IMG/VR virus record: IMGVR_UViG_3300010400_000008
Coordinates: 1-56,745 of that record
Length of the DNA: 56,745 nucleotides
Strand: one strand, 5' to 3'
Source of the DNA: a virus
Below are positions 4,764 through 52,551 of the stretch, in pieces. Position 1 is the stretch's first letter. Each line of letters begins with the position of its first letter. The position numbers were made by a program, and so were the translations under genes. The notes under the pieces were generated by a model that did not search any database, was not told where the DNA came from, and was given only the letters and a program-made list of their open reading frames with translations.

Positions 4764-5180
4764 ATGGCGCTTTCCCCCGCCGACATTACCGCCTCCTTCT
4801 TCGCAGTCCTGAAGAGCAGTACCGCCGGCGCCGCCGTGCGCGCAGCCCTGGGCGCCCAGGGCGCAAGCGTCATCCCCGCCGACGACCTCAAGACCGCCGG
4901 CCTCGTCTTCCCGCTCGTCGCCCTGCGCGCCGGCCCCATCACCGGCGAGCGCTACCAGCCGCGCGCCTGTTTCTTCACCTGGTGGGTCTACGACGAGGCA
5001 ATCAAGCGCTTCACCCGCATCAATCAGATCTTGCCCCTGATCGAGGCGGCCTACACCGCCCACATCATCGCCTACGGCCGCACCGACCTCGCCGGCGGCA
5101 TCTCGCAGGAGATCCCCGAGGACCGCGCGCTGGGGCGGCCCACCCGATCGATCACCTTCACCTATACCACCCGCCGGTAA
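4764..5180 (+). CDS. Tail terminator / tail completion protein
   Basis: A 138-residue protein immediately before the tail tube gene, the position of the tail terminator (lambda gpU role: caps the tail tube and joins it to the head). The sequence shows an N-terminal helix (ASFFAVLKSSTAGAAVRAAL), beta strands with 'ACFFTWWVYDEA' and a C-terminal SITFTYTTRR strand, compatible with this fold. The assignment is by synteny and secondary-structure pattern. Confidence 0.6.
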   Translation: MALSPADITASFFAVLKSSTAGAAVRAALGAQGASVIPADDLKTAGLVFPLVALRAGPITGERYQPRACFFTWWVYDEAIKRFTRINQILPLIEAAYTAHIIAYGRTDLAGGISQEIPEDRALGRPTRSITFTYTTRR

Positions 5181-6791: not shown

Positions 6792-9197
6792 ATGTCTGGA
6801 TTCGACGCCGGCGCAGCGGTCGCCAAATACACGATCGACTACGGCCAGGCCCGTGAGGCGGGCGCCGCGCTGCACTCGATCTATGCTGGCCTGCGGCAAG
6901 ACAGCGCGGCGCTGGGCACGGCATCGCGCCAGGTCGAGACCGGCTTCACGAGCCAGTCAGCGGCGGCGCGGAAGGCGCTCGCTGACTTCGAGCGGCTCGA
7001 TCGGCAGTACACCGCTATCCGGGATAGCGAGATCCGCGCGGCCCGTGCATCGGGCGACCACGCCAAGGCGCTGGAGCTCATTGATGTGCAGCTGAAAGCC
7101 GCCATCCCCGGCACGACGCGCTATAACACCCTGCTCGCGCAGCAGGCAACGGTGACACGGCAGGCCGCACAGGCCCAAGGCGGCGGCGACGGGCTGAGCG
7201 GCAGTCTGCTCGGCGTTGCCGGATCGCTCGTAGTGGCTGCTGGAGGGTTTACCCTCGTGACGCGCGCCGTCCAGAGCTTCGCCGACGCCTTTGATTTCAA
7301 GGTCAAGCTCGACGCGACCAACCTATCAATCAGCAACCAGCTGCGCGGCGTGCGCGATCTCGGCCAAACCTTTGGCGAGGCGCGGCAGTTCGGCGAGCGC
7401 TACAAAATTACCCAGGCTGAAACCAGCGAGATACTCCAGAACTCTATTGGTGTGTTGCGCTCATCGACGAGCAGCGTTGCCGAGCTCGAGTCGGTCCTGA
7501 TCCGGCTTCAATCCCGCGACCCTTCGAAGCCCATCAGCGAGGCCGCCAGGGCACTGCGCGAGCTCAACACCGGCGATGTCACGACGATCAAGGAGATCTT
7601 CAATATCGGCGCCGCTGATGCGCTCAGAATGAAGAATGAGATCGCCAAAGGCGGCGACGCGGTGCAAGTGCTTTCCGCGTTCCTCACCAGCGCGGGCAAT
7701 GGCATGGAGGTGCTGGATCAGCGGACACAGGGTATCGTCGGCAAGCTCAACGACGCGACGGTTCAGGCTGAGAAGTTCCAGTTGGCGCTGGCGGGCAAGG
7801 CCGGCGGGCCTGGTGCAGTGCTCCTCGACTTCAAGACGAATCTGTTCAAAGAGTTCACTGCTATTTTGAGTGGTGACTTCTCGGAGATCGAGGCCCGCAA
7901 CCGCAAAAACGAGCTGGCGCAGCTGGCCTACAACGACGCAATCGCGCAGGGTAAAAACGATGCCGAGGCCTACGCCGTCGCGCAAGGCATCCTGAACGGT
8001 ACGACCAAGACCGTAGACGATCTGACGCTTGAAGCGGTCAACGCGCTGCGGCAGCGGGTGCTGGCAAGCGGCCCGGCAATCACCGGCATGCAGCAGGAGA
8101 TCAGCGGCGCGATCGCCGCCGGGAACGCTGCGCGCCAGCATGCGGACGCATTGGGCGCGCAAACCGTTAAGACCCTGCAAGCAAATGCAGAGGCGGAGAA
8201 GCAGCGGCGTGTAATGGCTCTGATTGCGCAGCAATCGGGGCTGGTCCAGAAGGGCTTTATCACCCAGGCGCAGGGCGTCGCGGTGTTACGCGGCGAGCTC
8301 GGCAGTGCCGCCGATGAGGCGCTACGGCTCCAGGCGGAGCTGGGGCGCGCGGCGGCTGTTTCTGCCCAGAAAGACGCGCCGACCACCAGCGCCGAGCGGA
8401 GCTTGCTGGCGAAGGCCAACGCCGGTCAGGGCGACGCAAGCGAACGCCTGAAAAAGGAAAAGGCGTTCCGTGATGCACAAAAGCAGTTCCAGCAGGATCT
8501 GCTCCGCTTCGACTCACCCGCCGCGCAGCTGGCCGCCAAGCGGCGCGAGCTGGCCGGCATCGCCGCCGACGACCCCAAGCGCTTCACGGTGCAGCTCGAC
8601 ATCCGCCGCCTCCAGGAGCAGATCGAGGCGGAGCGCCTGCGCACTGCCAAGTCGCATACCTCCGAACTTAATAAGCAGCTCGGCCTGAACGAGTCGATCT
8701 ACGACAGCCAGCAAAAGCAGCTCGACGCGCAGCTGAAGGGGCAGGAGCTGGCCATCCGCAACCGCCAGGAGACCCGCAAAGAGGACCAGGAGCTGCGCAT
8801 CAATCAGAACGCCCTGGCCCACGCCAAAGACCCGCGCTTTCGGGCGGCCGCCCAGGACGCGATCGACCTGATCAACGTCCACCGCCAGCAGCGGGCGCTC
8901 GACCTCGCGCAGAACGGCGCTATCACAGCCGCCCCGATCGTCAACGGGCGCCTGTTGCAGAGCCTGGCCGGCGGCGGCACCCCTGGCGCGCCCGCCAGCG
9001 CCGGCGCCGGTCCCCTGTCGGGCGGGCGCCCAGGCGGCGGCGCCACCCCCGGCGCAGCGGGCGGTATCACCATCATCAATCAATTCCAGCTCGACGGCAA
9101 AACCGTGCTGGAGGTCATCAACCCGCTTATCGCGCAGCAGCTGCTCGACGCCATCACGGGGCGCGGCAACAGCGGCGGCGCGCAGGTGGCCTCATGA
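6792..9197 (+). CDS. Tape measure protein
   Basis: An 801-residue protein following the chaperones, as in nearly all siphoviruses. It has long Ala/Gln/Lys-rich coiled-coil segments, a hydrophobic stretch near residues 135-155 (LLGVAGSLVVAAGGF) for membrane passage, and a Gly/Pro-rich C-terminal region ending in a compact beta domain. By the usual relation of residues to length the tail would be around 120 nm. No lytic domain was seen. Confidence 0.88.
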   Translation: MSGFDAGAAVAKYTIDYGQAREAGAALHSIYAGLRQDSAALGTASRQVETGFTSQSAAARKALADFERLDRQYTAIRDSEIRAARASGDHAKALELIDVQLKAAIPGTTRYNTLLAQQATVTRQAAQAQGGGDGLSGSLLGVAGSLVVAAGGFTLVTRAVQSFADAFDFKVKLDATNLSISNQLRGVRDLGQTFGEARQFGERYKITQAETSEILQNSIGVLRSSTSSVAELESVLIRLQSRDPSKPISEAARALRELNTGDVTTIKEIFNIGAADALRMKNEIAKGGDAVQVLSAFLTSAGNGMEVLDQRTQGIVGKLNDATVQAEKFQLALAGKAGGPGAVLLDFKTNLFKEFTAILSGDFSEIEARNRKNELAQLAYNDAIAQGKNDAEAYAVAQGILNGTTKTVDDLTLEAVNALRQRVLASGPAITGMQQEISGAIAAGNAARQHADALGAQTVKTLQANAEAEKQRRVMALIAQQSGLVQKGFITQAQGVAVLRGELGSAADEALRLQAELGRAAAVSAQKDAPTTSAERSLLAKANAGQGDASERLKKEKAFRDAQKQFQQDLLRFDSPAAQLAAKRRELAGIAADDPKRFTVQLDIRRLQEQIEAERLRTAKSHTSELNKQLGLNESIYDSQQKQLDAQLKGQELAIRNRQETRKEDQELRINQNALAHAKDPRFRAAAQDAIDLINVHRQQRALDLAQNGAITAAPIVNGRLLQSLAGGGTPGAPASAGAGPLSGGRPGGGATPGAAGGITIINQFQLDGKTVLEVINPLIAQQLLDAITGRGNSGGAQVAS

Positions 9198-17263: not shown

Positions 17264-17731
17264 TCAGCTCCTGAAAAAGTCATCGGCCCATTGGAACGCC
17301 ACCCCGGCATCGCGCGCGGCCTGCTCGTCTTCTGGCCGGTCGCCGACAGAGAGCGTGTCGGCTGCTGCATAGGCGTAGCGCGCCATGGCCTCGCGGATCA
17401 TGGCGCCGCTCGGCTTCCGGCGCGCGGCGGCTGCGGGGTCGTTGTAGGGCGCTTTGCCGCGCGCGTCCGCGAAACAGACAAAGACGCTCTCCCAATCGAG
17501 CCGCAGCCGGTAGCACACATCGGCGATCTTGCGCTCCCAATCGGCCTCGGTCACAAGGCCAAACGCCACGCCGCCCTGGTTGGTGATGACGCCGACACTA
17601 TGGCCGGCGTGGCGCAGCTCCGCAAGCTTTCGCCCCCGCCCCGGCAGCGGCTGCCAGGTGTGGTAGTCGCGATCGGGATTGTCCATGTAGCCGCTGATGA
17701 GCGTGCCGTCAAGGTCGAACAGGTACAACAT
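17264..17731 (-). CDS. HAD-family phosphatase (PNKP/HisB-N-like)
   Basis: Encodes 155 residues from the ATG at 17731 (AGGAG 8 bases upstream; the longer frame has no such site). Motif I DLDGTL at residues 5-10, motif II VITNQGG, motif III lysine in RRKPSG and motif IV VGDRPEDEQAARDAG are all present. The pattern with TNQGG is that of histidinol-phosphate/polynucleotide 3'-phosphatase-like HAD proteins. It might repair or process nucleic acid ends; the substrate cannot be read from sequence. Confidence 0.75.
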   Translation of the reverse strand: MLYLFDLDGTLISGYMDNPDRDYHTWQPLPGRGRKLAELRHAGHSVGVITNQGGVAFGLVTEADWERKIADVCYRLRLDWESVFVCFADARGKAPYNDPAAAARRKPSGAMIREAMARYAYAAADTLSVGDRPEDEQAARDAGVAFQWADDFFRS

Positions 17732-17784
17732 CTTCGTCTCTCCTGGCGGCGCCGGGGTAGCGCTCGGCGCCGCCACGTTGTCGC

Positions 17785-25740: not shown

Positions 25741-28721
25741 CCCGCCACCTCCATCGCTTCCGCCAGCCGCGCCTGCGCGTCGCCGATCCGCCGCGCCAGA
25801 TCCTCGTAGGCGTCGGTCGGGATCGTCGTGTCGTCGGCGAGAAGGTCGAGCCGGCGCCGGCAGTCGGCCAGCAGGCTGCGCGGGGTTATGCCAGTGTGGC
25901 CCCGCGCGACCTGGCCCTCGGCGGTGTCCAGCATCGAGGCGATCGCCGCCAGCGGGTCGGCCTCCAGCTCCGCCAGCGTCGGCGGTAGGCCGTGCTCGCT
26001 CAGCTCGGCCGGCATGGGCGCGTAGGGGGCTGGCGTCGCCGCCAGGAGCACGGCCACATGCTGCGCCGCCTGCTGCATCTCGTCATAGCGAAACATCGTG
26101 CTGGCCGGCGCCCGCTGAAGCGTGGCCGACATCTGGCCCAGCCAGGCCGCCGCCGCCTCGCGCGGCGTGGGCGTGCCGCTCGCGAAGCGCCGCAAGGTCA
26201 TCGCCAACGAGTGGTACATGGCGAGCGCCTCGTCGTAGGTGTAGTTGCCCGTTGTGCCGTCCGCCCAGACGATGTAGTGCCATACCCCGTCATCGTTGAC
26301 GATCGGCGTGTGGTACTGCGCGCCCAGCTGCTCGCGCAGGTCGTGCTCCTCTTCTCGCGCCGCGCAGGCCCGACAGCGATCGGCTAATGTCCCGCCGATG
26401 TTGTGGCGACCCACGCTCAGGTTGCCGCACGCGCACACCGGCGCCGCGCGCGCCGCATCCAGCCCGGCGAGATAGCCCAGCTCGTTCAGTGACATGTCGC
26501 CCGGCAGGATCTCTCCATCGCGCAGCCAGTTCGCGCCGCTCCAGTCGTAGCCCGCCAGCCACAGCGCGTCGATCAGGTCGTCGGGCGCATCGGGTAGGTC
26601 ATCTTCGTAGAGCCGCGCGCGCCAGGCGAGCAGCGCCAGGTGGGCGAGGTCAGACGCCGCGATCGCCTCGAACTCGTCATGGATCGCCGTGTAGGCGTGG
26701 AGGCCCGCCGGGCAGTCCGGGACGTAGATCACGCGCCAGGCGTGGTCAGTCAGCTCAGCCAGCGGGCGCGCCAGCTGTGTGGCCTCTGCAATCAGCGCGG
26801 CCGGGTCGTCGCCGCTGAGGGCCAGGCCGCAGGCGTGGCGCATGCCGATCGTGGTGTCGCCGTCGTTCCGCCAGATGGTCCAGCCGGCGGGGGCCGTGGG
26901 CAGGGCGGGCGCAATCGGGGCGGCCGGCTGCTCGATCGCCTCCAGCCGGCTCAGCACACCGTGCCAGGTGGCATTGCCGATACCGGGATGCGGCGCGGGC
27001 GGGTACATGGCGTAGCGATCGTCGGGATAGAAGCCGGGCTTGGTTACGCGCCAGCCGAGTGCTTGGAAGCGCGCCAGCACGGCATCAAAATCGGGCGGGA
27101 TGTCGCACGGCCAATCCCCGACCCCGGCGCGTGGTTGAGTCGTTGCCGCCGGCGGTCCATCCTCGCTCGCGCTGACCGCCGCTGCCAGCTCGTCGGGTGT
27201 GGCATCGGGCCGCTCGACGGCGAGTGCCGCCAGCGCGATCACGCCGGCGGCATCGGTGGCGTAGGCGTCGGCGCCCTTGGCCAGCCGGTACTCGGCGCCG
27301 GCGCGGCGTATCGTCCAGCCGCATGCCTCCAGTTGCCGCTCGGCTGCGACGGTGAGCCGGTGGGCAGCGGCGGCCGGCGCCCGCTGCTGTAGCTCCGCAT
27401 GGGTCTGCTCCTGCTTGTGCAACTCGATGCACAGCGACATCCAGCTGGCGACGTTTGCGACGCCGTTCAGGCCAGCATCGAGCAGGCTGTAGCCCTTCTC
27501 ATCCCGGCTGAGTGTCAGCCCGATCGCCTGCGCCCGTGCCTGCGCAGCGGCGTACTCGGCCGGCGTCGGCGCGTTTTTCGCGTTGCTTCGATCGCGGGCC
27601 TGCGCCTCGCTCTGCGCCGTCATCGTGGCGCTGGCGCAACGCGGGCAGAGCAGCTTGCCATCGATCTGCATCGAGCCTGGGGCGCCGTAGGGAGCGCCGC
27701 AGCCGCCTTCGCAGGAACGCGCCGGCGGCTCTATCGGCGGCACGCCGGGCAGGATTTTAATCCGCTGGTCGGTGATGACCAGTTCCTCGTTGCGATACCG
27801 CGCGAGGGTGCCAGGGCCGTTGCGCCCGTGCTTGGTCCAGGCCGCCACCTGACCAGGGTAGGCCGCACGCGACACCACCGCGCAGCCCTCAGCCGAGAGA
27901 AATGCCCCCGCCTTCGATAGCGAGGCGATACAGGCCCAGCGGCGGCCCGCGTAGTCGAACATGATAATCTTGCCCGTCTCGCTGTAGCTCATGGCCACAT
28001 TCTGCGCCGCAGCCCGATTGAGCAGGGAGGTGTCATGCACGATCAGCGGGTTCGGGATGGCAGTAGGGGCGGGGAATCCATCGGCGTGATTGACTGCGCC
28101 ACGCGCCTGATTCGCCGCCGCAATGCCGCTGGTGTCCATCGTGCGCCCATCGGCGGTCTTGCGCGCACTGGACGCGCGTCCAGTGCTCAGCCCGTGGCGC
28201 TCGGCGATCAACGCCACAAACACGTGGCTGACCTTGCAGCGCCGCGCGATCTCGCGGTCACTCCACTGCCCCCACTCCTCGTCTTGTAGTAGCACCAGCA
28301 CCGCGCGCTCCTTGTCGGCCCTGGTGCGCCTCAGGCCGTGATCGGCATTGGCGCCGGCGGCGTAGAGTACCGCGTCGCGCCGCGTGCCCTGGCGCACCTC
28401 GGCCCGGATCGCCGTTGGCGGCGCGGGGCGCTCCAGGGCTTGGAGCTGCGTGTAGGCCTCGAGACGGTGGAAGCCATCGGCCAGCCAGTAGGCCGATCCA
28501 TCGTGAAAGACCACGATCGGCGGGATGCGCTCCAGGCCGTTCTGGACGGAACACAGCTCGCGCATCGCCTCGACATACTCCGCAACGGCCGCCGGGTCGA
28601 GCCCGGCGCGGGCCTGCGTGCCGCCATCGATGCGGATGTGCTCCGGGCGGATAGCGGTGATCAGGGTGGCGGCCGGCGGGTCGGTGGTGGCAACGGCAGG
28701 TTCGATTAAGTCAGTGGTCAT
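25737..28721 (-). CDS. Large multidomain ParB/Srx-like protein
   Basis: Encodes 994 residues from the ATG at 28721 (GAGG 5 bases upstream). Residues about 25-115 resemble the ParB N-terminal domain (IRIDGGTQARAGLDPAAVAEYV; WLADGFHRLEAY). A helix-turn-helix follows near 155-180 (SDREIARRCKVSHVFVALIAE). Near residue 330 there is a C4 zinc site (CEGGCGAPYG ... CPRC). The remaining 650 residues show repeated small alpha/beta units (WTIRRAGAEYRLAKG; WTIWRNDGDTTIGMR). This is far longer than usual phage ParB-like proteins. It may act as a CTP/ATP-dependent DNA-binding protein or nuclease. Confidence 0.65.
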   Translation of the reverse strand: MTTDLIEPAVATTDPPAATLITAIRPEHIRIDGGTQARAGLDPAAVAEYVEAMRELCSVQNGLERIPPIVVFHDGSAYWLADGFHRLEAYTQLQALERPAPPTAIRAEVRQGTRRDAVLYAAGANADHGLRRTRADKERAVLVLLQDEEWGQWSDREIARRCKVSHVFVALIAERHGLSTGRASSARKTADGRTMDTSGIAAANQARGAVNHADGFPAPTAIPNPLIVHDTSLLNRAAAQNVAMSYSETGKIIMFDYAGRRWACIASLSKAGAFLSAEGCAVVSRAAYPGQVAAWTKHGRNGPGTLARYRNEELVITDQRIKILPGVPPIEPPARSCEGGCGAPYGAPGSMQIDGKLLCPRCASATMTAQSEAQARDRSNAKNAPTPAEYAAAQARAQAIGLTLSRDEKGYSLLDAGLNGVANVASWMSLCIELHKQEQTHAELQQRAPAAAAHRLTVAAERQLEACGWTIRRAGAEYRLAKGADAYATDAAGVIALAALAVERPDATPDELAAAVSASEDGPPAATTQPRAGVGDWPCDIPPDFDAVLARFQALGWRVTKPGFYPDDRYAMYPPAPHPGIGNATWHGVLSRLEAIEQPAAPIAPALPTAPAGWTIWRNDGDTTIGMRHACGLALSGDDPAALIAEATQLARPLAELTDHAWRVIYVPDCPAGLHAYTAIHDEFEAIAASDLAHLALLAWRARLYEDDLPDAPDDLIDALWLAGYDWSGANWLRDGEILPGDMSLNELGYLAGLDAARAAPVCACGNLSVGRHNIGGTLADRCRACAAREEEHDLREQLGAQYHTPIVNDDGVWHYIVWADGTTGNYTYDEALAMYHSLAMTLRRFASGTPTPREAAAAWLGQMSATLQRAPASTMFRYDEMQQAAQHVAVLLAATPAPYAPMPAELSEHGLPPTLAELEADPLAAIASMLDTAEGQVARGHTGITPRSLLADCRRRLDLLADDTTIPTDAYEDLARRIGDAQARLAEAMEVAG
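28165..28188. repeat. Palindrome copy inside the ParB-like gene
   Basis: Contains CACTGGACGCGCGTCCAGTG (28166-28185, perfect 20-bp palindrome). Twenty-four bases here are identical to 41806-41829 in the early-gene region, where the palindrome extends to 28 bp. Within the gene it codes for the segment just after the HTH. A candidate binding site for the protein encoded here. Confidence 0.7.
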
Positions 28722-30320: not shown

Positions 30321-30707
30321 CTACGCCGCCTGGGGCGTGGCCACGCCCCACAGCGAGAGCGAGAGCCGCAGCTGCGGCGTGATGGCCAGCGGCTGCCGCG
30401 TGGGCGCGGCCGGCGGGGCGGGCGTGTGGCCGACCGCCGCCTGAAGCGCCCGGAGGCGAGCGGCAAAGGCCGGATCGTCTCTGGCCAGGCGCCCACAGCG
30501 CTCGGTGTAATAACACACCGTCGTGTGGTCGCGTCCTAAGAGCAGGCCGATCTCGACCACGGTGTAGCCGTGGTCGCGCAAGATCGCCGTGATGGCGATG
30601 CGCGCCTGGGTGATACGGGCCCGGCGCCCGCGCCCGCTGCGCAGGTCGGCGACGGGCACGGCGAACAGCGCTGCGGCGGCGGTGATGACGGTGGCGGGGT
30701 CGATCAT
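30321..30707 (-). CDS. Stand-alone DnaA domain IV-like DNA-binding protein
   Basis: A 128-residue protein. Residues about 8-78 match the C-terminal DNA-binding domain of DnaA: ARITQARIAITAILRDHGYT, VVEIGLLLGRDHTTVCYYTE; RDHTTV is the DnaA signature contacting the DnaA box. Domains I-III (oligomerisation, ATPase) are absent. The tail is Pro/Ala-rich. It is coupled by ATGA to the helicase-loader gene. It might bind DnaA boxes in the phage or host origin, either recruiting or blocking initiation. Confidence 0.82.
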   Translation of the reverse strand: MIDPATVITAAAALFAVPVADLRSGRGRRARITQARIAITAILRDHGYTVVEIGLLLGRDHTTVCYYTERCGRLARDDPAFAARLRALQAAVGHTPAPPAAPTRQPLAITPQLRLSLSLWGVATPQAA

Positions 30708-31624
30708 GTCACCACCTCGTCGCGGTCCCAGGGGTCGAGCTCGTGGGCGATCGGCCGCACATCGGCGCCGCCCATCTCGACCAGGTGAAAGCGCCCATCG
30801 CGGATGCGGCTGGCCAGGAAGCTGGGGATGCGCGCCGCGCCATCCAGGTTGTAGCCGATGATCGTGCCGTACTGCGCCCGGCCCTGGTAGCGCGCCAGGA
30901 AGATGGCGTTCAGCACATCATCGACGAACGGGCTATCGCGGATCTTGTCCAGCTCATCGACCGCCAGGATCGGCGCTGCAATCAGGCGCCGCAGCCGCTC
31001 GCCATATAGCTCGGTGCCGATCGCGTCCCTGAGTTCGTTGAGCAGCTCGGGCATCATCACGTAGCGGCCGTAGATGCCCCGATCGGCCAGGTGGTTGAGC
31101 GCGGCGTAGATCAGCATCGTTTTGCCCACGCCATAGCCGCCGGCCAGGGTCAGCCAGCCGCGCGGCTGCACGATAAAGGCCCGAATCTTGGTACGGGCGG
31201 CGTCCTGCTCCGGCACGCGGCGGATGCGGCCGTTGGTCAAGCGCACGTCGTCGGCCTCCTCGGGCAGATTGCGCCATTTCTTCGCGCGCGCCTGGCCCGC
31301 CGCACAGGCGCAGGGGATGAGCGCCGGCGCATCGTCGCCATCGCCAAAGGTGTCCAGGATGACTAACCTATCGGCGCGCGCGGTGGCCTGCCGCTCCAGC
31401 AGGGTGCCGTGGCCGCTACACCGGCAGGTCGTCGTCGTCAAGCGGGCCGGCGGCTTCGATCTGGGCGAGCAGGGCGTCGTAGTCGACCGGGGCGGCGCTG
31501 CTGGCAGCTCGCGGCGGCCGATCATATCCACGACCACGTCGCCCATCGCCACCATGGGGGCGCTTGGGGGGTCGCTGATCATCAGCAGGTCGCTCGGGGC
31601 GATCCGCAGTATCTTGTTGTTCAT
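30704..31624 (-). CDS. DnaC/IstB-like AAA+ helicase loader
   Basis: Encodes 306 residues if started at the ATG at 31624. Cys pairs CRC and PCAC (about residues 67-106) form the zinc-type N-terminus common in phage DnaC proteins. Walker A GGYGVGKT is at 162-169, Walker B ILAVDELDK near 219-227. It should load the host DnaB helicase at the phage origin (lambda P role). The true start is uncertain: 31416-31624 is overlapped in another frame by the initiator C-terminus. The open frame extends further up to 32038 without a stop. Confidence 0.78.
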   Translation of the reverse strand: MNNKILRIAPSDLLMISDPPSAPMVAMGDVVVDMIGRRELPAAPPRSTTTPCSPRSKPPARLTTTTCRCSGHGTLLERQATARADRLVILDTFGDGDDAPALIPCACAAGQARAKKWRNLPEEADDVRLTNGRIRRVPEQDAARTKIRAFIVQPRGWLTLAGGYGVGKTMLIYAALNHLADRGIYGRYVMMPELLNELRDAIGTELYGERLRRLIAAPILAVDELDKIRDSPFVDDVLNAIFLARYQGRAQYGTIIGYNLDGAARIPSFLASRIRDGRFHLVEMGGADVRPIAHELDPWDRDEVVT

Positions 31625-32576
31625 GGCTTTGTCGTGCCTTTCTTCGTTCATAGGCCGGGGTGTCGCTGCCATAGCTGGCCGTGTCGCGCCAGCGATCGAG
31701 CGTCGATCGGATCGCCTTGACCGATCGGATGTCGCGCGAGATCGCCACCGCCAGAATCGCGCGGCCGACCCAGTAGAGGCCGTGGCCGCCGGTCGATTCG
31801 TTGTGTGCCAGCGCCATGGCGGCCAGCTGGCGCAGATCGAGCGGTCGCGGGTGCGGGCAGGCGTCGCGCCAGAGGTCGACCGGGTGCGCGGGCAGCGGCA
31901 GCTCCCCCTCGGGTGGCGGGGGCGGCGGAGCCGTGTTTGGTGGCAGGAGCTCCAGGGCCGCCTGCTGTTTTTTCGCGCGCGCGCGATCTCCTTCCTTCCT
32001 TCCTTCCTTCCTTCCTTCCAACGTGATCGATCGATCACGGTCGCCGTGATCCTTTGATAACGGTTGCCGTGATCGATCGATCACGGTGTCTGTGATCGAT
32101 CGATCACGGTCGCCGTGATCCTTTGATAACGGTTGCCGTGATCGATCGATCACGGTGAGATCCATCTCGGTTTGCAGTTCATGGCGTCCCGATGGCTTGC
32201 GCAAATTGCGTGTGCCGAGCTTGGCGAGATGCACCTGCGCGTCGCGATTCGAGGCGTCTAAAATCGATTCCCACGGGATTCGGTAGATCGGACGGTCAAA
32301 CTTGCCACCTTTGACCTCCTCGTACCCGACGATCTCGAGGAGATTCAGGGCGACCAGGTCGGTCAGCCAGCCCGTGACTCGGGGGTAGGCGCTGGTCCCC
32401 ATCTCGTCGGCGATCTCGCGGCTGCCGAACGCCGTGCGCTCGGTCAGGTCCATCAGTGCGCGGATCGCCAGCCAGCAGGCCAGCTGGTGCGGCGTGCAGC
32501 GCTTGCGCACCACGAACGGCACGCCGGTTTCGACCGCACGGTCCAGAATGTCACGGAGCATGCCGTGTGTTTTCAT
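31416..32576 (-). CDS. Replication initiator with internal origin (lambda O-like)
   Basis: Encodes 386 residues from the ATG at 32576. The N-terminal 130 residues are a winged helix (FVVRKRCTPHQLACWLAIRA; FGSREIADEMGTSAYPRVTG; LNLLEIVGYEEVKGGKF). Residues about 141-190 are encoded by the iteron array and contain two copies of a 23-residue repeat VIDRSRQPLSKDHGDRDRSI..., then EGRKEGRKEG encoded by the TTCC tract. A helical C-terminal domain (LRQLAAMALAHNESTGGHGL) probably binds the loader made from the next gene. Order initiator-origin-loader equals lambda O-ori-P. Confidence 0.78.
   Translation of the reverse strand: MKTHGMLRDILDRAVETGVPFVVRKRCTPHQLACWLAIRALMDLTERTAFGSREIADEMGTSAYPRVTGWLTDLVALNLLEIVGYEEVKGGKFDRPIYRIPWESILDASNRDAQVHLAKLGTRNLRKPSGRHELQTEMDLTVIDRSRQPLSKDHGDRDRSITDTVIDRSRQPLSKDHGDRDRSITLEGRKEGRKEGDRARAKKQQAALELLPPNTAPPPPPPEGELPLPAHPVDLWRDACPHPRPLDLRQLAAMALAHNESTGGHGLYWVGRAILAVAISRDIRSVKAIRSTLDRWRDTASYGSDTPAYERRKARQSHEQQDTADRPERPADDQRPPKRPHGGDGRRGRGYDRPPRAASSAAPVDYDALLAQIEAAGPLDDDDLPV
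31990..32019. repeat. Tetranucleotide tract (CCTT)7.5 within the initiator gene
   Basis: Seven and a half uninterrupted CCTT units (AAGG on the coding strand) next to the iterons. It codes for EGRK repeats in every frame. Such tracts change length by slippage. Loss of one unit (or gain of two) would move translation into the frame that is open from 32038 to the end of the loader gene at 30704. Confidence 0.95.
32022..32154. other. Replication origin: six iterons at 23-bp period
   Basis: Iterons of 18 bp start at 32022, 32045, 32068, 32091, 32114 and 32137. Four are the palindrome CGTGATCGATCGATCACG (first base T at 32091) and two are CGTGATCCTTTGATAACG, in order P-D-P-P-D-P, separated by 5-bp linkers. 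Each P holds three GATC sites and each D one, 14 in all. The site lies in the initiator gene as in lambda, so it is almost certainly the initiator-binding part of the origin. Confidence 0.88.
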
Positions 32577-33478: not shown

Positions 33479-33830
33479 TTCATCGGTTCTCCCCTAGAAT
33501 AGGCGTGCGCCGGCGCAGTCTGGTCTTCCCCGCCGACGCATACCAAGGATTTCCGGTTCAATCGAGTTGCCCAGAGTAGCAGCCGAGCGGCGTTCACGCC
33601 GCTGCTCGGCTGTGTTCGTGGTGCGCGGCGTTCCTTGCCACGGCGACGCCGCGCACCCAGGTTCTTACCGTGCCCTGCCCCGGCCGGCGGACCGGGACCA
33701 ATCGCTGCATACGTATAGGCGCCTCCTTGCTCGTGGGCCGGGTCGCTCCCTGCGGCGGCCCGCGCGGCTGGGCTGTGCCCGGATTGCACAGCACAATCGC
33801 CCGTGTCGCCGTGTTAGCGAGGAGATTACG
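33479..33830. other. Intergenic region between replication operon and integrase
   Basis: About 350 bases with no credible gene. It holds a minus-strand -10-like TATTCT (33496-33501), a GCGCCGGCGC palindrome, and a large hairpin at 33580-33612 (CAGCCGAGC + GGCG, loop TTCA, GCT bulge). The last 20 bases contain GAGGAG, the Shine-Dalgarno of the integrase gene. No clear plus-strand promoter for the integrase was found. Confidence 0.5.
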
Positions 33831-34832
33831 GTGGATTACTACACAGGAGAGGTGTTCAAAGTCTCAACAATTCCTGGAGCTGATCGCGGGGCCGTTCACA
33901 TCCATGCAGCTGATGCAATGCAGCATCAGCAGACGACGAGGATGCCGTTGATGGATGTGGCCACGCTCCTGCCCCTCTGGCGCGCCGCGCTTGCCGCCGA
34001 CCACGCCGAGCGCACGGTGCGCTCCTACACCGACCATGTCATGGACTTCGTGCGCGGGCTCGGCCCGGCACCGACGATCGCCCAGATCACCCCGCCAGCG
34101 ATCGAGGCGTTTAAGACGCGGCTCGCACGCCGCTGTGTGCCCAGGACGATCGGGCTCGCGCTGACCGCCGTGCGCTCCTTCGTGCGCTGGCAGATTGCCA
34201 GTGAGCTGCGCGTCGACGACCCCACGCTCAAAGTGACCTTCCCCCGCCCCGGCAAATCACTGCCGCGCGCGCTCTCCGATGAGCAGGTGCGCGAGCTGAT
34301 GGGTGCGATCGCCCTGCCGGATGGGCTGCACCCCGCGCCGGCCTACCAGTGGCGGCGCAACCGGCTGGCGATCCTGCTCATGCTCTATGCGGGGCTCCGG
34401 ATCTCCGAGGCGGCGGATCTGCGCTGTCGTGATGTGTTCCTCGACCAGCGCAAGATCATCATTCGGGAGGCCAAGGGCGGCAAGGACCGCACGGTGCCGA
34501 TCCACGCTGTCCCCCTGGGGGAACTGCGACTCGCACTGGTCGATCGCCGGCCGAGTGACGCCGTCTGTGGCCACCCGACCGGCGATCCGCTGGCTAGGAA
34601 AAGTTTCCATCACGTGTTCGAGCGCTGGGTGCCGCGCCTGAACCTCTCATTCCACTTCACGCCGCACCAGCTGCGGCACACCTGCCTGACCAAGCTGATC
34701 GACACCGGCGCCAATGTGTTCGAGGCCCAGGAGATCGCCGGGCACGAAAGCCCCGAGACGACTCGGATTTACTACCGCCTCAGTGCCGAGCATCTCCGCG
34801 CGGCCATCGACCGGCTGCCAGTCACTTGGTAG
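33831..34832 (+). CDS. int: Tyrosine integrase
   Basis: Encodes 333 residues from a GTG with AGGAG 6 bases upstream. An N-terminal SAM-like core-binding domain (about 40-130) precedes the catalytic domain with R190 (AGLRISEAA), K near 215-218, HQLR at 279-282, H305 (GHES) and Y314/315 (RIYYRLS). All catalytic residues of the tyrosine recombinase family are present. The attP-like tRNA end lies 0.8 kb downstream. Main candidate for phage integration. Confidence 0.92.
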   Translation: MDYYTGEVFKVSTIPGADRGAVHIHAADAMQHQQTTRMPLMDVATLLPLWRAALAADHAERTVRSYTDHVMDFVRGLGPAPTIAQITPPAIEAFKTRLARRCVPRTIGLALTAVRSFVRWQIASELRVDDPTLKVTFPRPGKSLPRALSDEQVRELMGAIALPDGLHPAPAYQWRRNRLAILLMLYAGLRISEAADLRCRDVFLDQRKIIIREAKGGKDRTVPIHAVPLGELRLALVDRRPSDAVCGHPTGDPLARKSFHHVFERWVPRLNLSFHFTPHQLRHTCLTKLIDTGANVFEAQEIAGHESPETTRIYYRLSAEHLRAAIDRLPVTW

Positions 34833-35636: not shown

Positions 35637-35664
35637 TGGGGTCCGAATCCCTGTTCCCCAGCCA
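35637..35664. other. Putative attP core: tRNA 3'-end-like sequence
   Basis: TGGGG / TCCGAAT / CCCTG forms a T arm, followed by TTCCCCA, G and CCA, which is the end of a tRNA-Gln-type gene (acceptor TTCCCCA-GCCA). No complete tRNA can be folded upstream. A tRNA 3' end near a phage integrase is the usual attP signature, reconstituting the host tRNA on integration. TCCCTCCTGGG at 35485 and 35535 could be arm-type sites. Confidence 0.55.
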
Positions 35665-43561: not shown

Positions 43562-44596
43562 ATGGAAAATAGGTATCGAAAAGTCCGCTTTAAACTAGCT
43601 ATTTCTCCCATGCCACCCCTCGATCCTCCAGAGGCGGCGCCGCTGGTCGCAGTATCACCCGGTGATATCACACGGCGCCTCGACGAGCACCCCGCCGCCG
43701 TCTATCTCGCGCAGCTCACCACGCGCAGCCGCCGCACCCAGGCCTCCGCCCTCGACCAGGTGGCGCAGCTGCTGGGCTATGGGAGTGCCCTGGCGTGCCC
43801 GTGGCACCAGCTCAGCTACGCCCACACCGCAGCACTCCGCACCGCCCTGGCTGAGCGCTACGCCCCGGCCACGGCCAACCGCATGCTGGCAGCGCTCCGG
43901 CGGGTGTTGCAGGAGTGCTGGCGCCTGGGGCTGATGACGGTGGAGGCGTATGAGCGCGCCGCCGATCTGAAGGTCGTGAAAGAGGAGAAGCTGCCGAGTG
44001 GCCGCGCGCTCGATCCGTCCGAGGTGGCGGCGCTCTTTGCGGTGTGCGCGGGCGACTCGACCCCGGCCGGCGTGCGCGACGGCGCCTTGCTCGCGCTGCT
44101 GCTGGCGACCGGCCTGCGGCGCTCCGAGGCCGTGGCACTCGACCTGGCCGACTACACGCCCGCCAGCGGCGCGCTGAAGGTCCGCTCGGGGAAGGGTCGC
44201 AAGGATCGCCTGGTCTACGTCGGCGCGGCGGTGGCCGTGCTGGCATTGGCCGACTACCTGACGATCCGCGGGGCCTGGCCAGGGCCGCTGTTCGTCGCCG
44301 GGCGGCGCGGTGGGCATCTCCTGACCAGCCGTATGACTGATCAGTCGATCGCGCTCATCCTCGCACGTCGCGCCGCCCAGGCAGGTATCGCCGACGTATC
44401 ACCCCACGATCTGCGCCGCACCTTCGTGACCAATCTCCTGGACGCCGGCGCCGATATCGCGACCGTGCAGAAGCTGGCCGGGCACGCCGATCCCGCGACC
44501 ACGGCGCGCTACGACCGGCGTGGCGAGCAGGCAAAGCACGACGCGGCGGCGCTGCTCGATCTGCCGCCGATCCGGCGCACGCTGCCGCTGGACTAG
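43562..44596 (+). CDS. Second tyrosine recombinase
   Basis: A 344-residue protein (or 328 from the Met at residue 17, 43610). N-terminal core-binding domain with 'AALRTALAERYAPATANRML', then catalytic residues R186 (ATGLRRSEA), K near 211-214 (GKGRKDR), HDLR at 282-285, H308 (GHADP) and Y317 (ARYDRRG). XerC/D-like in style and unlike 33831-34832. Could resolve genome multimers, act as a second integrase, or act at the adjacent palindromes. The start has only a weak ribosome site. Confidence 0.9.
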   Translation: MENRYRKVRFKLAISPMPPLDPPEAAPLVAVSPGDITRRLDEHPAAVYLAQLTTRSRRTQASALDQVAQLLGYGSALACPWHQLSYAHTAALRTALAERYAPATANRMLAALRRVLQECWRLGLMTVEAYERAADLKVVKEEKLPSGRALDPSEVAALFAVCAGDSTPAGVRDGALLALLLATGLRRSEAVALDLADYTPASGALKVRSGKGRKDRLVYVGAAVAVLALADYLTIRGAWPGPLFVAGRRGGHLLTSRMTDQSIALILARRAAQAGIADVSPHDLRRTFVTNLLDAGADIATVQKLAGHADPATTARYDRRGEQAKHDAAALLDLPPIRRTLPLD

Positions 44597-45493: not shown

Positions 45494-45523
45494 TTGCCTC
45501 GCGCGGCGAGCTCGTGGTATGAT
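45494..45523 (+). promoter_or_regulatory. Promoter of the 45620 gene and tRNA
   Basis: TTGCCT, 18-base spacer, TATGAT, with an extended -10 TGG. The transcript would cover 45620-45886 and the tRNA, ending at the terminator at 46000-46043. Confidence 0.5.
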
Positions 45524-45619: not shown

Positions 45620-45886
45620 ATGCCTGAGCACACCATTGCAGCACTCGACGACCTTCAGGCGCGCGGCTTTGGCACCGCCGAATTCCTTGTGGACAGCGAG
45701 GGGAACCTCATCCACATCGAAACCGTGTTTACGGCGCAGCTCGAAAAGGGCGAGAGCCTGGCCGATTTCATTGCGCGGGCACGGGTCGAGGGCATCTGGC
45801 AGCACGGCGATCGGATTCAGGTGCCGGCGCAGAATAAGCGCACCGAATACGTGCGCATCATCCGACCGGCGAAGAAGACCACGTAA
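45620..45886 (+). CDS. Small protein co-transcribed with tRNA
   Basis: An 88-residue protein. DDLQARGFGTAEFLVDSEGN, LIHIETVFTAQLEKGESLAD and RIQVPAQNKRTEYVRIIRPA give an alpha/beta pattern. The ribosome site is weak. It is 3 bases upstream of the tRNA, under the same promoter. No family recognised. Confidence 0.55.
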   Translation: MPEHTIAALDDLQARGFGTAEFLVDSEGNLIHIETVFTAQLEKGESLADFIARARVEGIWQHGDRIQVPAQNKRTEYVRIIRPAKKTT

Positions 45887-45889
45887 CGC

Positions 45890-45964
45890 TGCGGTGTGGG
45901 GGAACGGTACCCCGTTGGGCTCATAACCCAAAGATAGCGAGTTCAACTCTCGCCACCGCTCCCA
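45890..45964 (+). tRNA. Initiator-type tRNA-Met (CAT)
   Basis: Cloverleaf: acceptor TGCGGTG/CACCGCT with an unpaired T1:T72, D arm GGGG-AACGGTA-CCCC, anticodon arm TTGGG-CTCATAA-CCCAA, variable AGATA, T arm GCGAG-TTCAACT-CTCGC, discriminator C and encoded CCA. The mismatch at 1:72 and three consecutive G:C pairs under the anticodon loop are the hallmarks of initiator tRNA-fMet, not elongator Met or Ile2. It follows a small gene and precedes a strong terminator. Confidence 0.88.
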
Positions 45965-45999: not shown

Positions 46000-46043
46000 G
46001 GGGGTCGCTCGTTCTCTTGTCGAGAACGGCGACCCCCATTTTT
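46000..46043 (+). terminator. Intrinsic terminator after the tRNA
   Basis: GGGGGTCGC (plus CGTTCTC after a bulged T), loop TTGTC, GAGAACGGCGACCCCC, then ATTTTTA. Ends the tRNA transcript and insulates the late region that begins at 46145. Confidence 0.9.
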
Positions 46044-46144
46044 ATGCGACGCTCCCCCGCCAGCCGACGATCAGCCGCTGCGCGCCCACTCAGGCCATTG
46101 ATGCAGGCAGGCCACGGCGGGGGGAGCTCCCAAGGCACGAACCC

Positions 46145-47940: not shown

Positions 47941-48692
47941 TGCCGACGATCGACCGCACCACCTATCAAAAGGCTACGCGGCCGATTGGCTCGGGCTACG
48001 ACCGCCGTGTGAAGGGCGTGACGCCGCGCAAGCTGGTTATCCACACGACCAACGGCAATCGCGGCAGCAGCTTCGCGGCCGAGTGCCGCTACTGCGTCAA
48101 CAGCAACGCGATCGGCATCCACTATGAGATCGGCAAGGAGGGCCAGATCGTCGAGCAGCTCGATCCCATGTGGCGTGCCTGGCACGTCGGCCGCAGTCTG
48201 CCGGGCTGGGGCAACAACGACGCGATCGGCGTCGAGTGCCATCACGCCGTTGGTGAGGCCTGGACACCCGCGCAGCACGATGCGCTCACCTGGCTGACCA
48301 AGGAGCACCTGATGCCGCGCTACGGCATCACGCCCGCCGCTATCGACACCCACCGCGCGGTGGCGCTGCCCCACGGCCGCAAAGTCGATCCGAGCGACTG
48401 GTCCGATGCATGGTTCTACGCCTGGCGCGCGGCGCTCAGTGGCCTGGCCTATGTGCCGCAGCCCGCGCGCCTGGCCAGCTACATCACCACGACCGCCGTC
48501 AACGTGCGGCAGGGGCCGAGCCGCGCGAAACCGATCGCCTTGGATGGCCATTGCGTGTTAGCGAAAGATTTTGCGTTCCAGAGCGATGTGACGGTGCAGG
48601 GCGAGGCGATCGGCGGCAACGGCACATGGGTGCATCTGGTCGTCCCGGCCGCCTGGGGCTTCGTGCATAGCTCGTGTGTGAGGCGGGTATGA
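47940..48692 (+). CDS. Endolysin II: N-acetylmuramoyl-L-alanine amidase with SH3b
   Basis: A 250-residue protein. Amidase_2/PGRP-type domain with LVIHTTNG (first zinc His, residue 35), IGIHYEIGKEGQIVEQ, NDAIGVECHH, and DTHRAVALPHGRKVDPSDW. Residues about 185-250 are an SH3b wall-binding domain (TAVNVRQGPSRAKPIALDGH). It overlaps the glucosaminidase stop by one base (TGATG). Two enzymes cutting glycan and stem peptide act together. Confidence 0.88.
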   Translation: MPTIDRTTYQKATRPIGSGYDRRVKGVTPRKLVIHTTNGNRGSSFAAECRYCVNSNAIGIHYEIGKEGQIVEQLDPMWRAWHVGRSLPGWGNNDAIGVECHHAVGEAWTPAQHDALTWLTKEHLMPRYGITPAAIDTHRAVALPHGRKVDPSDWSDAWFYAWRAALSGLAYVPQPARLASYITTTAVNVRQGPSRAKPIALDGHCVLAKDFAFQSDVTVQGEAIGGNGTWVHLVVPAAWGFVHSSCVRRV

Positions 48693-50298: not shown

Positions 50299-51083
50299 AT
50301 AGTCCGACCTACTTCACATCCACCGATAAGCGCTGCGAGACCAGCGCCATCGAAGAAGCAATTATCAAGCAGCTCCAGGATCTGGGCATCCCGCTCGTGC
50401 CGCAGGTCAAGCTGGGCAATAACTGGGTGTTCGACGGCGCGATCGACGGCACGATGGTGCTGGTCGAGGTCCACGGCGAGTACTGGCACACCCTACCCGA
50501 GGTCCAGGCGCGCGACGCCCGCAAGCAGCAGTGGGCCGACCAGAACGGCTACACCATCCTGACCATCTGGGAGGCCGACTACCAGAACGACCCTGACGCG
50601 GCGCTGACGATCGTCGCCGACCACTATGCGGCGATCAAGACATTCACGGACGCGGGGGATAAAGGTGGCAAAGGTGGCATGGATCACCTGCGCCGCAGCG
50701 ACTACGGCACATGGCATGCGGCGTTTTTAGCCGCGCTGGGGCAGACCGGCATCATCCTCGACGCCTGCGACTTCGCCGGCGTCCACCGCGAGACCGTGCG
50801 CAAGCACCGCCGCGACGACCCGGCCTTCAACGAGGCGTTCAAGGACGCCCGCCGTGACGCCGCCGATCGATTGAGGCGCCGCTACCACCAGCGCGCCGAG
50901 CAGCAGAGCGATCGGGCGATGGAGTTTCTCCTCAAGACCCTCGACCCGGACGAGTATGGCGACGGGCACGCCGCGTTGCTCCAGGGGCTGATGCAGTACC
51001 TGGACCTGTCGAAGCTGAGCAATGAGCAAATCGAACGGCTCAGGGCCGGCGACGACCCGATCGCGGTCCTCCTCGGCGGCTGA
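50295..51083 (+). CDS. Nuclease-like domain fused to small terminase
   Basis: A 262-residue protein. Residues about 15-105 resemble a Vsr/DUF559 fold: WVFDGAIDGTMVLVEVHGEY WH, then ARDARKQQWADQNGYTILTI WE. Residues about 130-262 look like a small terminase subunit: ACDFAGVHRETVRKHRRDDP and AFKDARRDAADRLRRRYHQR, ending with an acidic tail. It overlaps the large terminase by 62 bases. The fusion would put a DNA-end or mismatch nuclease on the packaging recognition protein. No other small terminase candidate exists. Confidence 0.62.
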   Translation: MNSPTYFTSTDKRCETSAIEEAIIKQLQDLGIPLVPQVKLGNNWVFDGAIDGTMVLVEVHGEYWHTLPEVQARDARKQQWADQNGYTILTIWEADYQNDPDAALTIVADHYAAIKTFTDAGDKGGKGGMDHLRRSDYGTWHAAFLAALGQTGIILDACDFAGVHRETVRKHRRDDPAFNEAFKDARRDAADRLRRRYHQRAEQQSDRAMEFLLKTLDPDEYGDGHAALLQGLMQYLDLSKLSNEQIERLRAGDDPIAVLLGG

Positions 51084-52551
51084 GCTTGACATCCGCCTGC
51101 GCGCCGAGCAGGAGAAGCGCCGGCGCGAGGCTGCGCAGGGCGATGCCCCGCCGCCACTGACCTTCCGTGCCTACATCGCGCTGGTCAGCCCCAAGTATCA
51201 GTTCTACCGCCACTGCAAGGAGCTGATCGCCGTTTTACAACAGGTCGCCGACGGCACACTCACCCGCGTGATGGTCTTCGAGCCGCCGCGCCACGGCAAG
51301 AGCGAGCTCGTCTCGCGGCTCTTCCCGGCCTACTACCTCTACCGCTACCCGGATCGCTTCGTCGGCCTGGCCAGCTACGGCGCCGACCTGGCCTACACCC
51401 TCAGTCGCGCAGCTCGTGAGTTCTATCTGCGCGGCGGTGGGCAGCTCCACAAGGCCAGCCGCGCGGTCAAGCAGTGGCTGACACGGGAGGGCGGGGGGCT
51501 CTGGGCGGCCGGTGTGGGCGGCCCCGCGACCGGCAAGGGATTTCATCTTGGCATTATCGACGACCCGATCAAGGACGCCAAGGAGGCCGCCAGCGAGGCC
51601 AAGCGCGCCGGCGACCAGGATTGGTACGGGTCGGTCTGGACCACCCGCGAGGAGCCCGGCGGCGCGATCGTTATTGTCCAGACGCGCTGGAGCGAAGCCG
51701 ATCTTTCAGGCTACGTCCTGGAGCTGGAGGCCGAAGAGCCCGAGCGCTGGTATATCGTGCATCTGCCGGCGATCTGTGACCCCGACGATCTGCCAACCTA
51801 CCCCGCGACCTGCACGGTCCATCCCGACTGGCGTGAGCCCGGCGAGCCGCTCTGTCCCGAGCGCTACCCCCTGGAGCGGCTCAAGAAGGTCGCCAAGCGC
51901 ATCCGCGAGTACTTCTTTGGCGCGCTGTTTCAGCAGCGGCCGCGGCCCCGATCAGGCGGCATGTTCCGCCGCCAGGATCTCGAGCATATTGTCGGCGCAG
52001 CCCCCCGCACGGCGCGCCGGGTGCGCTACTGGGATCTTGCCGGGGCCGACCAAGGCAAGGGCGACTGGACGGTCGGGGCGCTCGTGGCCCTCCACGCCGA
52101 TCGCATCGTGATCGAGGATGTCGTGCGCGGCCAGTGGCCCGCCGCCGAGCGCAACGCCGTCATCCGCCAGACCGCCCGCGACGATCGACGGCGCGGCACG
52201 GACGCCACCTACATCGAGCAGCCGCCAGGGCTCGCCAAAGAGGCCTGCGACACCATCATTCGGCTGCTGCTGCTCGACGGCGTAGTGGCCCGCGCGGACC
52301 CGGTGCATGGCGACAAGGTCAGCCGGGCCGAGCCGCTGGCCGCCTGCTGCCAGGCCCAGCTGGTCGACCTGGTTGCGGGGGACTGGCACCGCGCATTCTT
52401 CGAAGAGCTGGAGTCCTTCCCCCACGGCAAAAACGACGACCAGGTCGACGCCGGCGCGGGCGGGGTCAACCGCCTGCTCGACCCGACCCAGTGGCAATCT
52501 GAGGAACCCGACGAGGACGACGAGGAAGGCATTCGCATCAGCACGCTATGA
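51022..52551 (+). CDS. terL: Terminase large subunit
   Basis: A 509-residue protein. Walker A PPRHGKS at residues 88-94, Walker B LGIIDD at 176-181, nuclease Asp in YWDLAG (338) and later YIEQPPG and DDQVDA, consistent with the terminase_6 (GpA/TerL) RNase H fold. It packages DNA into the prohead through the portal encoded next. Starts inside the small-terminase frame. Confidence 0.93.
   Translation: MSKSNGSGPATTRSRSSSAAELDIRLRAEQEKRRREAAQGDAPPPLTFRAYIALVSPKYQFYRHCKELIAVLQQVADGTLTRVMVFEPPRHGKSELVSRLFPAYYLYRYPDRFVGLASYGADLAYTLSRAAREFYLRGGGQLHKASRAVKQWLTREGGGLWAAGVGGPATGKGFHLGIIDDPIKDAKEAASEAKRAGDQDWYGSVWTTREEPGGAIVIVQTRWSEADLSGYVLELEAEEPERWYIVHLPAICDPDDLPTYPATCTVHPDWREPGEPLCPERYPLERLKKVAKRIREYFFGALFQQRPRPRSGGMFRRQDLEHIVGAAPRTARRVRYWDLAGADQGKGDWTVGALVALHADRIVIEDVVRGQWPAAERNAVIRQTARDDRRRGTDATYIEQPPGLAKEACDTIIRLLLLDGVVARADPVHGDKVSRAEPLAACCQAQLVDLVAGDWHRAFFEELESFPHGKNDDQVDAGAGGVNRLLDPTQWQSEEPDEDDEEGIRISTL

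Follow-up and report, generated by a model that had tools for sequence, protein, structure and literature searches.

We find that a phage genome recovered as one IMG/VR record encodes a single tRNA, an initiator-type tRNA(CAU) with an encoded CCA at positions 45890..45964 of the + strand, and that this tRNA is probably a working initiator, the only tRNA of a temperate phage, which in an infected cell would supplement the host initiator pool or take its place. The window analysed here is that entire record of 56,745 bases (67% GC). It begins and ends with the same 123 bases, which makes it probable that the genome is complete and circularly mapped. ARAGORN and Rfam agree on a + strand tRNA beginning at 45890 and ending at 45964 or 45961 (RF00005, 58.5 bits, E 4e-10), and it is the sole Rfam-supported tRNA of the genome. 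ARAGORN also calls a tRNA-Arg(ccg) at 48353-48433; this call lies inside the endolysin gene without Rfam support and is probably false.

Sequence features and genomic setting of the tRNA

RNA folding recovers the cloverleaf (-30.2 kcal/mol, z -2.5), the CAU anticodon sits in a complete cloverleaf, and all stems are fully Watson-Crick paired with the sole exception of 1:72. The acceptor stem TGCGGTG/CACCGCT leaves T1:T72 unpaired while positions 2-7 are all Watson-Crick, and the anticodon stem TTGGG/CCCAA closes the loop CTCATAA with three G:C pairs (G29-31:C39-41); on both features, and on the phage-encoded initiator that it deduced from them, the first-pass annotation was correct. The D stem GGGG/CCCC gives a purine:pyrimidine pair, G11:C24, and base 73 is C. 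The tRNA is set apart from elongator tRNA-Met and tRNA-Ile2 because of T1:T72, G29-31:C39-41 and the purine:pyrimidine 11:24 pair, and these bases support its assignment as a bacterial-type initiator; the two elongators, which the annotation had named as competing identities and which carry a paired 1:72 end and C11:G24, are ruled out by T1:T72 and G11:C24.

According to PMC5143459, 98.6% of bacterial initiators are mispaired at 1:72, with U:U in 207/4438, and encoded CCA is favoured; its Table 3 gives A11:U24 in 4430/4438 and G11:C24 in 3/4438, although 11:24 may be among the features by which software sorted these published initiators. The unpaired 1:72 end is described as the primary formylase determinant, with A11:U24 secondary, and the three GC pairs of the anticodon stem as the P-site determinant (PMC4611024). 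The window tRNA thus has the primary initiator features and departs from consensus at the secondary 11:24 pair and at base 73; overall its D arm, its T arm and its bases at 1, 11:24 and 73 set it apart from bacterial initiators. The combination of T1:T72, G11:C24 and C73 is unusual.

Upstream of the tRNA on the + strand lies an 88-aa ORF (45620..45886) to which no function is assigned, which has no PHROG, Pfam or IMG/VR relative, and whose low-confidence structural model (mean pLDDT 64) gives no fold match with E <= 0.001. Co-transcription of the two is plausible because 3 nt separate the stop of this ORF from the tRNA, and a sigma-70-like promoter match (TTGCCT-18-TATGAT, with TG ahead of its second hexamer, 45494..45523, +; a consensus match only) precedes the ORF. 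About 35 nt past the tRNA is an intrinsic terminator (46000..46045, +), a hairpin at 46000-46037 plus a T run, which at -32.7 kcal/mol (z -8.4) is as strong as had been claimed for it. A co-directional run of lysis, packaging and head genes begins after this terminator and includes the terminase large subunit (TerL; 51022..52551, +).

Among the 86 predicted genes, PHROG and Pfam scans find terminase, portal, protease, head proteins, a holin-like protein and endolysin, as well as two tyrosine integrases, a ParB-like protein and methyltransferases, and from this content the phage looks temperate and tailed. A gene with a DnaA C-terminal helix-turn-helix adjoins an IstB-like ATPase gene (30321-30707 and 30704-32038, - strand), possibly a replication initiator and loader, and a HAD/PNK3P phosphatase-domain protein (17264-17776, - strand) is possibly a nucleic-acid end-repair enzyme. 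Two portal relatives in IMG/VR (37% and 31% identity) have no tRNA at either locus, and portal matches in 59/400 Chloroflexota genomes, at ~28% identity, are too weak to point firmly to a host.

Viral relatives and a survey of viral initiators

The best Blast match is Nocardia phage P3.1, at 82% over the entire tRNA, with weaker matches to Caulobacter, Mycobacterium and other phage tRNA-Met genes. The P3.1 tRNA (MW582532, 39090-39165) shares T1:T72, CCA and the same acceptor and anticodon arms and, as in the window, is an initiator-type tRNA that is the only one in its genome and lies upstream of TerL (1.2 kb in P3.1); it differs in having A11:T24 and A73. No terminator was found after the P3.1 tRNA on its strand and no tyrosine integrase (PF00589) in its genome, and a tblastn search with the 86 predicted window genes finds no protein shared with P3.1 at E 1e-4. 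The public annotation of P3.1 lacks this Met-type (CAU) gene, as does that of Clavibacter phage CN1A for its own Met-type (CAU) tRNA (5001-5077 of the extracted locus). The tRNAs of CN1A, ct7L0027, CcrColossus and the Wildcat type proved to have paired 1:72 ends and to be without the three G:C pairs.

Phage initiator tRNAs are already known as a kind, of which the window tRNA is a further member, since initiator or Met-type tRNAs have been described in T5, cyanophages and Sinorhizobium prophages. Escherichia phage T5 (AY543070) carries an annotated initiator, tRNAfM(CAU), with T1:T72 as in the window and A11:T24, although it is one of many tRNAs there and its anticodon stem, CTAGT/GCTAG, does not have the three G:C pairs; this T5 gene (8429-8506 of the extracted locus) therefore lacks pairs that a review calls universal. 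Cyanophages encode tRNA-fMet according to a review (PMC4810235), and phiLM21-like Sinorhizobium prophages, temperate like the window phage, carry a single tRNA-fMet or tRNA-Met (PMC12429752), a likeness resting on published tRNAscan-SE labels rather than on sequence comparison. A literature search, with most subscription papers outside its scope, found no experimental study of the role of a phage initiator tRNA. The annotation had treated an initiator as exceptional among phages, and this view does not hold: besides T5 and the cyanophages, a pattern scan of IMG/VR with position 1 left free matched at least 120 contigs, an earlier pattern with T at position 1 having matched 82.

Eighty loci from the second pattern yield 83 tRNAs, of which 80 pass a structural score and 72 are unique; part of the tRNA, the three G:C pairs included, is set by the patterns themselves, the contigs may include host flanks, and the sequences are related to one another. 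Among the matches listed, 61/72 unique viral initiators are mispaired at 1:72 and 11 are paired, the mispairs being C:A (20), T:T (13), C:T (9), A:C (6) and A:A (5), with C:C (3), T:C (2), G:A (2) and A:G (1) rarer, while positions 2-7 are mispaired in only 1, 1, 0, 0, 4 and 4 of the 72. Viral elongators called by ARAGORN at the fetched loci show a 1:72 mispair in 23/1145 unique sequences, a figure that a bias of ARAGORN towards paired ends may have lowered. A mispair maintained while its bases change is the pattern expected if initiator function is selected, and suggests that these viral tRNAs are real initiators.

The 11:24 pair behaves differently. Among the matches listed it is A:T in 45 of the 72 unique viral initiators, G:C in 9, T:A in 8, C:G in 7 and other in 3, a departure from the A11:U24 rule of bacterial initiators (4430/4438; PMC5143459), and position 11 is A in 140/144 rows, read by eye, of Chloroflexota initiators matched with similar patterns. 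Where other viral initiators have G11:C24 (nine among the matches listed), the 1:72 mispair is retained in seven. C73 occurs, besides the window, in 4/125 unique viral initiators (among the matches listed) and in 0/35 bacterial ones extracted. T1 was considered as a phage mark and rejected, with T1 initiators in 28/201 Chloroflexota genomes (C1 in 96/201); the four of these extracted are all T1:T72. Also discarded was a late-operon rule, an idea from the window, P3.1, CN1A and ct7L0027 that is not general and failed a lone tRNA-Arg control: a TerL that follows the tRNA on its own strand at no more than 6 kb is seen in 3/17 lone-initiator records vs 0/7 lone tRNA-Arg records, too few for a difference (TerL was located by phrog_38 in the window and by phrog_2 in the other 16, PF03237 having found too few).

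Integrases, attachment sites and alternative explanations

One alternative is that the phage tRNA replaces a host initiator destroyed by a defence nuclease or toxin, as in VapC-type cleavage of tRNA-fMet. VapC is known to target initiator tRNA, evasion of such nucleases has been put forward as a role of phage tRNAs (PMC10264068), and the departures of the window tRNA from bacterial initiators noted above are of a kind that this explanation could use. The CTCATAA loop is, however, identical to the host type, such that a loop nuclease should still cut it; phages are reported generally to avoid encoding tRNA-fMet where VapC is present (PMC10264068); and no RNA ligase was identified among the Pfam- and PHROG-scanned genes, one of which has a PNK3P/HAD hydrolase domain. 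We consider this explanation unlikely.

Quite unlikely is tRNA-dependent lysogeny, in which integrase 2 would disrupt the host initiator gene via a short core and the phage tRNA would complement the loss. The window does encode two tyrosine integrases, integrase 1 at 33567..34832 (+) and integrase 2 at 43562..44596 (+), the latter 1.3 kb upstream of the tRNA, and for other isotypes such lysogeny, with cores of 8-17 bp, has been demonstrated (PMC10865867). Integrase 1, however, already has an attP candidate: ~0.8 kb after it, the 3' part of a tRNA-Gln(CTG), comprising the T arm, acceptor strand and GCCA, is found at 35637..35664 (+), and the exact 21-mer of this core occurs in 2/400 Chloroflexota genomes, each time as the end of a tRNA-Gln(CTG), which makes the fragment its likely attP core. 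The same tRNA-Gln(CTG) end is of use for host finding. For integrase 2 no att site was found in the window: outside the tRNA no 13-base stretch matches a Chloroflexi host initiator and a single 12-base match lies at 27186, no 11-base match lies near integrase 2, nor does any of the first 14 of 23 10-base matches, and the anticodon-loop word TCATAAC is found nowhere else in the window. Known systems differ as well. Fionnbharth-type phages are, like this one, temperate with a tyrosine integrase and their own tRNA, but their tRNA isotype is that of attB whereas the window combines an initiator with a tRNA-Gln attP candidate, and no phage in Table 2 of PMC10865867 uses an initiator gene in this way. 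The phiLM21-like prophages integrate at another isotype (Lys, Ser, Leu or Pro) than that of their own tRNA, and their authors, in the portion of PMC12429752 consulted, report no tRNA-dependent lysogeny. P3.1 lacks a PF00589 integrase, and only 9/28 lone-initiator IMG/VR records have one.

That the tRNA is an initiator copy in decay, a recent acquisition that is by now charged poorly, is decidedly unlikely: C73 and G11:C24 are off-consensus, as decay would have it, but every stem is fully Watson-Crick except at the required 1:72, at 11:24 both partners have changed and still pair, and the mispair is retained by most of the other viral initiators with G11:C24.

The suggestion that a host initiator gene, whole or in part, was captured as attP, which the annotation had offered as an integration target captured whole, is very improbable: the tRNA is near an integrase, and 4/28 lone-initiator IMG/VR records have one within 2 kb, in each case close to a contig end, as would be expected of proviruses in tRNA-fMet, but here the tRNA has an interior position in a genome whose ends overlap circularly, integrase 2 is 1.3 kb away with a gene in between, and the likely attP is the tRNA-Gln fragment. 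Scanned with a pattern of anticodon arm, T loop and CACCGCTNCCA, the whole genome collection gave a single contig, a Chloroflexi chromosome whose gene starts with C, is ~73% identical to the phage tRNA and differs from it, and thus no bacterial initiator with the same 3' end as the phage tRNA was matched; an attP role for the initiator tRNA is therefore unlikely for any sampled host, and its use as an attachment site is not supported.

Proposed function and meaning

The reading that we favour with moderate confidence, that of a working initiator, draws on an intact cloverleaf with all primary initiator features and an encoded CCA and on the maintenance of the 1:72 mispair across viral initiators, and is supported by the similar lone tRNA upstream of TerL in the protein-unrelated P3.1. 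The tRNA would be transcribed together with the small upstream gene, ending at the terminator, and trimmed from the transcript by host RNases. It would then be charged by host MetRS through its CAU anticodon, formylated by the host formylase through the unpaired 1:72 end and, by virtue of its three G:C pairs, admitted to the ribosomal P site. Added to the host initiator pool or replacing it, the tRNA may benefit the phage in infection, the change in the pool coinciding with expression of the adjacent downstream run of lysis, packaging and head genes. The boosting or redirecting of initiation suggested in the annotation is likewise a hypothesis. The rarity of C73 and of G11:C24 (3/4438; PMC5143459) counts against this reading, as does the failure of the late-operon rule to be general, and C73 in place of A73 could weaken charging.

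A more speculative and improbable proposal is that phage initiators form a distinct selected class, tuned away from a host factor that reads initiators and serving an initiation channel of their own. It is prompted by the retention of the P-site stem and of an unpaired 1:72 end whose bases keep changing, while A11:U24, and sometimes A73, are left behind. The factor evaded would be formylase dependence, a hydrolase or a nuclease, and the window tRNA, with T1:T72, G11:C24 and C73, would be an extreme example of the class.

Phage tRNAs are usually explained by codon compensation. An initiator tRNA reads start codons only, so codon compensation cannot explain a phage with a single initiator. If the working-initiator reading is right and the tRNA is functional, translation initiation would be a step that phages supply themselves, and the window would provide a small testable case of one tRNA, one operon and one terminator, while the surveyed variants at 1:72, 11:24 and 73 would form a natural set for testing formylase and initiation-factor rules.
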